A stretch of DNA of 64,000 nucleotides from positions 139,501-203,500 of the forward strand of contig NZ_CP118166.1 of the NCBI RefSeq assembly GCF_028748065.1, written 5' to 3'. Under the pieces are notes generated by a model. The model searched no databases. It was not told where the DNA came from and saw only the letters and a list, made by a program, of their open reading frames with translations. The position numbers were made by a program, and so were the translations under genes. The stretch is from Hyphococcus flavus. Lineage in GTDB: Bacteria; Pseudomonadota; Alphaproteobacteria; Caulobacterales; Parvularculaceae. Within the stretch, counting starts at the first letter, position 1. Every line of letters starts with the position of its first letter. This document shows positions 59,913-60,849 of this stretch, piece by piece.

Positions 59913-60503
59913 CTACTCCGCTCCCCACGGTGCGGGCGGTGCTGACACTGGTGTCGTTAAATCAAACTCAACCCGGAAAAACCTGTTCTCACGGGAGAGT
60001 TCATAAGCGAAAACGGTATCGGTAATTTCAAGGGCCCATACATTTGTGACAGACGCCGTAAGGGCTTCGCGATGAAAAAGTTCCACTGAATACGCGTCAA
60101 CCGGAAATTCGGCGCGGGTTTCGGAAATTACGCTGCTATCGCCGCCATATTGAGTCACAGCATCTTCCGAACCATCCTCATGCCGGTGATCGTGCTTGAG
60201 ACGCAATCCCTCCTCAGTTCGTGTTAGAACCCATGTTCGCGATCGGTTATCGCCTACATGGAAAGGAACCCTGATCTCATTGTCAGAACATTCCCTGACA
60301 TGCATCACCATTTTTTCGGCGACGAAATCAGCATCAACTTCATCGGTTGAGACCAACTTGCCTTCAAAAGCCTCTCCACAATTTGAGGCTATTCGCGCCA
60401 TGAATTCGTCAGCAGGTTCTTCCCCATCGACACTCGGCGCCTGCGAAGAGCATCCGCTCAACCAAAGCACCGCTACAATCAAACGCGCATAGTTCATGTT
60501 CAT
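59913..60503 (-). CDS. Hypothetical lipoprotein downstream of the SFPD-repeat gene
   Basis: A 196-residue predicted lipoprotein: signal peptide with lipobox LSGC (Cys18) after MNMNYARLIVAVLW. The mature region has a Cys pair (GEAFEG ... HVRECSDNEI) and several beta strands (RTWVLTRTEEGLRLKHDHRH, SVELFHREALTASVTNVWALEI, RFFRVEFDLTTPV). I do not recognise the family. It begins 13 bases after the SFPD-repeat protein gene and is probably cotranscribed with it, so the two may act together in the envelope. Convergent with the M23 gene. Confidence 0.65.
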   Translation of the reverse strand: MNMNYARLIVAVLWLSGCSSQAPSVDGEEPADEFMARIASNCGEAFEGKLVSTDEVDADFVAEKMVMHVRECSDNEIRVPFHVGDNRSRTWVLTRTEEGLRLKHDHRHEDGSEDAVTQYGGDSSVISETRAEFPVDAYSVELFHREALTASVTNVWALEITDTVFAYELSRENRFFRVEFDLTTPVSAPPAPWGAE

Positions 60504-60516
60504 CAAGGTTTTCCGT

Positions 60517-60849
60517 TTATGGCCAGCCCGGAAAGCTATCAACCAGTTTTATTTTTACATCAGGAAAGCTATCCACATACTGAATTTTCACGTCCGGAAA
60601 ACTTTCGACAAATTTCCATTGGCCGCAATCGTCAGGAAAACTCTCTACAACCTGAACATTCAGATCCGGAAAGCTTTCTACCACCTGGACCGTGATGTCC
60701 GGAAAACTGTCAACCACCTCAACGTCGCCATAGAGTGGGAAGCCGTTATATGTACAGGCGTCTTGATCAATTCCCTCTCCCGCCACCGCTGAATTGGCAA
60801 GTGCGCATAGCAAGACTGGTGCGCCGAAACGGGACAGAGCTGCTTTCAT
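60517..60849 (-). CDS. SFPD-repeat protein, probable 7(1) septoil-knot family
   Basis: A 110-residue exported protein (signal peptide to about residue 23, AVAG). The mature part is six near-identical units of V-x-x-[VY]-V-[DE]-SFP-[DG] with the SFP motif at residues 48, 59, 70, 83, 94 and 105; spacing is 11, 11, 13, 11 and 11 because of one insert (DDCGQW) that splits three units from three. Two cysteines (Cys32, Cys75) may bond. The architecture, including a closing G-W, fits small proteins named '7(1) septoil knot domain-containing' (formerly DUF6150), the most complex knot predicted so far. Function unknown. Family assignment is recalled, not searched. Confidence 0.75.
   Translation of the reverse strand: MKAALSRFGAPVLLCALANSAVAGEGIDQDACTYNGFPLYGDVEVVDSFPDITVQVVESFPDLNVQVVESFPDDCGQWKFVESFPDVKIQYVDSFPDVKIKLVDSFPGWP

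Follow-up and report, generated by a model that had tools for sequence, protein, structure and literature searches.

A predicted exported relative of the 7(1)-knotted protein Q9PR55 in Hyphococcus flavus

Introduction

To our knowledge, the 7(1) knot of the Q9PR55 type is the most complex backbone knot known in proteins, with one solved protein and an unknown biological role. A small gene of Hyphococcus flavus, whose product carries a regularly repeated SFPD motif, raises the question whether its protein belongs to the same family, whether its chain would be knotted as well and what such a protein might do. We analysed the gene within a window of 64,000 nucleotides (contig NZ_CP118166.1, positions 139,501 to 203,500); all coordinates refer to this window. 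The alignments used are A1 (broad, 34 family members), A2 (narrower than A1) and A3 (100 sequences). The features discussed are the following:

60517..60849, minus strand: SFPD-repeat protein gene, 110 aa, homologue of Q9PR55 and phrog_6462, under purifying selection
60781..60849, minus strand: Sec-type signal peptide, residues 1-23, cleavage between AVA and GE predicted by eye
60754..60756, minus strand: Cys32, invariant in A3, probable disulfide with Cys75
60529..60708, minus strand: six SFP(D/G) units, residues 48-107, spacing 11, 11, 13, 11, 11
60616..60633, minus strand: longer central connection DDCGQW, residues 73-78, with Cys75, Gly76 and Trp78 invariant in A3
59913..60503, minus strand (ATG at 60503): lipoprotein gene, 196 aa, lipobox LSGC, independent family

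A repeat protein of the Q9PR55-like family

The protein of the open reading frame 60517-60849 reads MKAALSRFGAPVLLCALANSAVA up to the predicted cleavage site and GEGIDQDACTYNGFPLYGDVEVVDSFPDITVQVVESFPDLNVQVVESFPDDCGQWKFVESFPDVKIQYVDSFPDVKIKLVDSFPGWP thereafter. SFP starts at residues 48, 59, 70, 83, 94 and 105, the sixth unit being SFPG; among 20,000 composition-preserving shuffles of the protein the maximum was two SFP, compared with six in the real sequence. In all homologues compared (66-77% DNA identity) dN amounts to 0.10-0.32, and dS is saturated or far larger. The gene is under strong purifying selection, and a dN much below dS in every one of these comparisons shows it to be real. Scanning for promoters and terminators revealed nothing beyond chance.

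Searching the PDB by phmmer with the window protein alone retrieved UU089.1 (Q9PR55; 8iwa and four more entries) with an E-value of 4.3e-10, and family profiles found Q9PR55 over the repeat region at 6e-15 (34 members) and 8e-16 (100 members). The two proteins share 44-47% identity, and the window protein displays the 11-residue SFPD units, the longer central connection and the six strands of the Q9PR55 family. Judged by these matches, it is close to certain that it is a member of the Q9PR55-like SFPD-repeat family. Residues 17-110 also match positions 11-103 of the 103 positions of the phage profile phrog_6462 (E 1.9e-29). In Pfam and NCBIfam, neither the SFPD gene nor the lipoprotein gene has a match at a meaningful E-value.

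An earlier sequence-only reading of this locus had described six near-identical 11-residue units (spacing 11, 11, 13, 11, 11), an export signal with two cysteines and a relation to a 7(1)-knotted protein. All of this held: the open reading frame contains the units as described, a Sec-type leader is seen by eye and C32 and C75 are conserved, and the relation takes the form of homology to Q9PR55 (E 4e-10 to 8e-16). The same reading had named DUF6150 (Pfam PF19647), and here it was mistaken, the window protein having no Pfam match at the cut-off of 27 bits. None of the 34 members of A1 matches the DUF6150 HMM, and a profile-profile comparison (hhalign) of the SFPD family with four DUF6150 members yields a probability of 0.5%; the HMM scan and the profile-profile test together rule out membership. 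A very remote link between the two families is conceivable, given a plan that looks similar by eye. Four of the collected loci (L124, L152-L154) encode DUF6150 proteins with three strands, a Trp-containing linker and three further strands; no relation to the SFPD family is detectable in their sequences.

Export and the cysteine pair

The N-terminus, MKAALSRFGAPVLLCALANSAVA followed by GE, reads by eye as a Sec signal, and hydrophobic, variable leaders are likewise seen by eye in nearly all family members. The mature window protein contains exactly two cysteines, C32 and C75, which are invariant in the 100-sequence alignment; of about 110 loci, only a few do not have both. Both are absent in L102, L148 and L149, and in L146, too, neither position holds a cysteine. 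Since the cysteines are kept or lost as a pair, a C32-C75 disulfide is very probable. Thus, for an exported, cysteine-paired branch, the leader and a both-or-none pattern of cysteines were found, and the bond itself is predicted. Conserved residues lie in the turns, the core valines, the C, G and W of the linker (DxCGxW) and the N-cap; no catalytic-looking polar surface residue is invariant.

Some relatives depart from this picture. Two viral SFPD proteins of about 83-86 residues (L148, 5965-6222; L149, 4895-5143), on contigs that also carry phage structural genes, have neither an evident leader nor the cysteines and possibly represent a cytoplasmic form. A SHYAD-type paralogue (L043, 1495-1800) keeps both cysteines and CGxW, and its genome (G148) also has an SFPD-type copy (L036). 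In the divergent loci L040-L042 of one alphaproteobacterial family, the SFPD letters are lost and the C, the CGEW and the spacing are kept.

Predicted fold and the question of the knot

The 7(1) knot of Q9PR55 was predicted with AlphaFold and then confirmed by crystallography and NMR (PMC9278004; PMC13352647; PMC11223836). For the window protein, AF2 with 34 sequences gave a confident six-strand model with a core pLDDT of about 97; with 100 sequences and the mature part, the model again has six strands (core pLDDT about 97, pTM 0.82). The beta strands of the models comprise residues 41-45, 52-56, 63-67, 77-80, 87-91 and 98-103, and confidence is low for residues 1-24. When both models were searched against the PDB with Foldseek, Q9PR55 entries, one of them titled '7_1 knotted Q9PR55', were the sole significant matches (probability 0.99-1.00); a structure search of BFVD returned no significant match. 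For both models the overlay on Q9PR55 is poor, with an rmsd of 10.1 Å and a TM-score of 0.34-0.37 (taking either the mature model or the crystal chain for normalisation), and an identical global topology is therefore not demonstrated. A low TM-score does not, however, prove that the folds differ: the repeats can be aligned in two near-equal registers, and a slip from one to the other would ruin the overlay. Indeed, shifting the alignment of the window protein with Q9PR55 by one repeat hardly changes the score (122 versus 117), and the ambiguous register could alone account for the low TM-score.

Independent of the models, we calculated APC-corrected mutual information from 118 distinct family sequences and found the strand pairs 1-4, 3-4, 3-6 and 2-5 at the top. 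Relative to the average pair, covariation is 1.55 between the first and the second half, as against 0.7 and 0.95 for sequential two-sheet and one-sheet solenoids, respectively. The graph 14,34,36,25 is the best among 720 relabellings (4/720; fraction 0.0056, the minimum given the symmetry of the graph) and the matching 14,25,36 is the best of 15; these figures apply to a graph picked partly after seeing the data and to a Neff of 24-90, depending on the weighting. By this covariation, strands 4-6 pack on strands 1-3. Such packing fits the expectation for an intertwined torus knot, but also that for a stacked three-sided two-coil solenoid.

The latter deserves consideration: the exported branch of the Q9PR55 family may form an unknotted or less knotted three-sided beta-solenoid, with strands 1-3 in a first coil and strands 4-6 in a second, stacked without threading. 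Stacked coils would produce just the covariation 1-4, 2-5 and 3-6, and the low TM-score against the 7(1) structures (0.34-0.37), at a Foldseek probability of 1.00, points the same way. Moreover, related proteins with differing topology have been reported in this family, since P73136 (112 aa), which is 48% identical to Q9PR55, is predicted by AlphaFold to form a 5(1) knot where Q9PR55 forms a 7(1) knot (Brems et al., PMC9278004). Against the solenoid stand the 44-47% identity to an experimentally knotted protein with the same 3+3 strand plan and longer central connection, the register ambiguity, which might explain the TM-score by itself, and the finding that neither model matches any other beta-solenoid in the PDB. 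Weighing these points, we consider the solenoid a possibility of lower rank, and the backbone of the window protein to be, by homology, probably a torus knot, with either the 7(1) topology of Q9PR55 or the 5(1) topology predicted for P73136.

The adjacent lipoprotein gene

The lipoprotein ORF starts 13 nt after the stop codon of the SFPD gene on the same strand, so that co-transcription of the two is plausible, and the sequence-only reading had cast the lipoprotein as partner or receptor of the SFPD protein. This layout recurs in the loci L008, L010, L044, L046 and L049, which speaks for a pair. Including the window (L001), however, these are the only loci in which the lipoprotein adjoins the SFPD gene (tblastn), all of them from one subclade in or near the Parvularculaceae; it was found beside the SFPD gene at no non-Parvularculaceae locus. 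Among 36 genomes searched for both genes, the lipoprotein occurs in 8 of the 12 with the SFPD gene and in 12 of the 24 without it (Fisher p=0.48), and in only 3 of the 12 are the genes adjacent. In five genomes (G320, G340, G294, G296, G301) they lie far apart or on different contigs. The proposed partnership therefore did not survive the co-occurrence check, the lipoprotein being absent beside nearly all other family members; a pair of partner proteins is very improbable, and a two-gene system fails in view of the many genomes with the lipoprotein alone and the mostly separate loci where both are present. The lipoprotein gene is an unrelated neighbour of the SFPD gene. Its family is widespread in the order, has no Pfam match and occurs independently of the SFPD gene.

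Distribution and phage copies

In the order, 29 of 100 genomes carry the SFPD gene; for the class the figure is 13 of 385. A profile search of GTDB contigs, made with A2, gave 117 loci, some of them in metagenome bins, from at least nine phyla (including Pseudomonadota, Cyanobacteriota, Bacteroidota, Spirochaetota, Ignavibacteriota, Chlorobiota, Bacillota, Myxococcota and Chloroflexota). A Klebsiella plasmid gave a match at an E-value of 1. The gene tree is poorly resolved with phyla intermixed, and no neighbouring gene recurs across phyla; synteny is limited to lineages, as with the DEAD-box helicase in the Parvularculaceae. The SFPD gene stands alone, scattered over phyla.

In viral sequences, whose hosts (Leptospira, Bacteroidales-type) are named by similarity, the gene has a more defined context. 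Two phage-like plasmids of Leptospira weilii carry an exported SFPD gene, as do nine prophage contigs of Leptospira type, and in those plasmids and contigs that were examined it lies in the tail module between the gp25-sized phrog_5564 and baseplate J, with LysM, the hub phrog_4930 and phrog_5275 upstream. In L155 (3929-4243), L157-L165 and L171, the exported SFPD gene of the tail operon overlaps the start codon of baseplate J. Two further viral contigs (L150, 6001-6363; L151, 5887-6237) carry a leader-bearing copy that is flanked by DUF6046 and a phrog_4930-like hub and lies on the opposite strand; in L151, the block of tail genes including the SFPD gene appears inverted. The two phage groups have the gene at different positions and in different orientation, so the copies were probably acquired separately near baseplate genes. 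Phage carriage is rare: 2.9 million viral contigs yielded about 15 distinct loci, and INPHARED no homologue.

Could the protein then be a phage-linked envelope protein, expressed from prophages to shield the host surface or to block a second infection, with the chromosomal copies domesticated? The phrog_6462 match is in line with this, as are the Leptospira copies between gp25-like and baseplate J genes downstream of the hub and the copies of L150 and L151, which have their own leader. Yet the rarity of viral copies argues against it, and chromosomal loci, the window included, contain no tail genes within 5 kb, which rules out a prophage context for them; in the window, the gene is surrounded by genes for an M23 peptidase and a DEAD-box helicase and by housekeeping genes. 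We therefore judge this reading unlikely. Even so, the tail-module copies, though rare, are the best available functional lead and a more specific one than the lipoprotein.

Proposed mechanism and meaning

The explanation that we favour, with somewhat more confidence than doubt, is that of an exported, disulfide-fastened and probably knotted envelope scaffold of the Q9PR55 family that acts alone. The SFPD protein would cross the membrane unfolded via the Sec route and, once in the periplasm, adopt a compact all-beta fold with strands 4-6 packed on strands 1-3, which the C32-C75 disulfide would then fasten. If the chain is knotted, the knot must tie after Sec export. The product would be a non-enzymatic, very stable envelope protein, working alone as a binding or shielding scaffold, which might be exchanged between phages and hosts. 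We prefer a non-enzymatic scaffold because conservation sits in the turns, the core and the N-cap and linker rather than in a polar site; as deduced from this pattern, the envelope-scaffold role itself stays tentative. More speculative, and rather improbable in our estimate, is a reading in which the exported 7(1) or 5(1) branch knots outside the cytoplasm after Sec export, is locked by the disulfide and is carried by phages beside baseplate hub genes for an action at the envelope in infection or exclusion. If true, a biological role would thereby be known for the first time for a knot so complex.

What is new here is an apparently exported relative of an already known 7(1)-knot family. The family is, by prediction, largely exported and disulfide-bearing. 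With its cultivable hosts (Maricaulis, Henriciella, cyanobacteria), it becomes testable whether a torus knot can tie unaided by cytoplasmic chaperones once the chain has left through the Sec channel, and what the function of the protein is.

Comparison with known systems

DUF6150 (PF19647) resembles the window protein by eye, with three strands, a Trp-containing linker, three strands and repeats of about 12 residues. The function-unknown phrog_6462 is nearly entirely covered by the window protein; its members, however, are phage genes, and those seen here belong to tail modules of Leptospira phages and of phages of Bacteroidales type. The window gene lies on the chromosome and has no phage neighbours. 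P73136, compared by description only, was placed in the Q9PR55 family by Brems et al. and is close in length to the window protein; its structure is an AlphaFold prediction only. Q9PR55 (UU089.1) of Ureaplasma (PDB 8iwa, 8iwb, 8iwc, 8jrm, 8w68) is likewise close to the window protein. Its PDB chain has 89 residues and is experimentally 7(1) knotted, whereas a knot in the window protein is probable by homology; equivalents of C32 and C75 are absent from its aligned region, where its one Cys sits elsewhere. What unites the two is homologous sequence, an SFPD turn every 11 residues, a longer middle connection and the same plan of strands.
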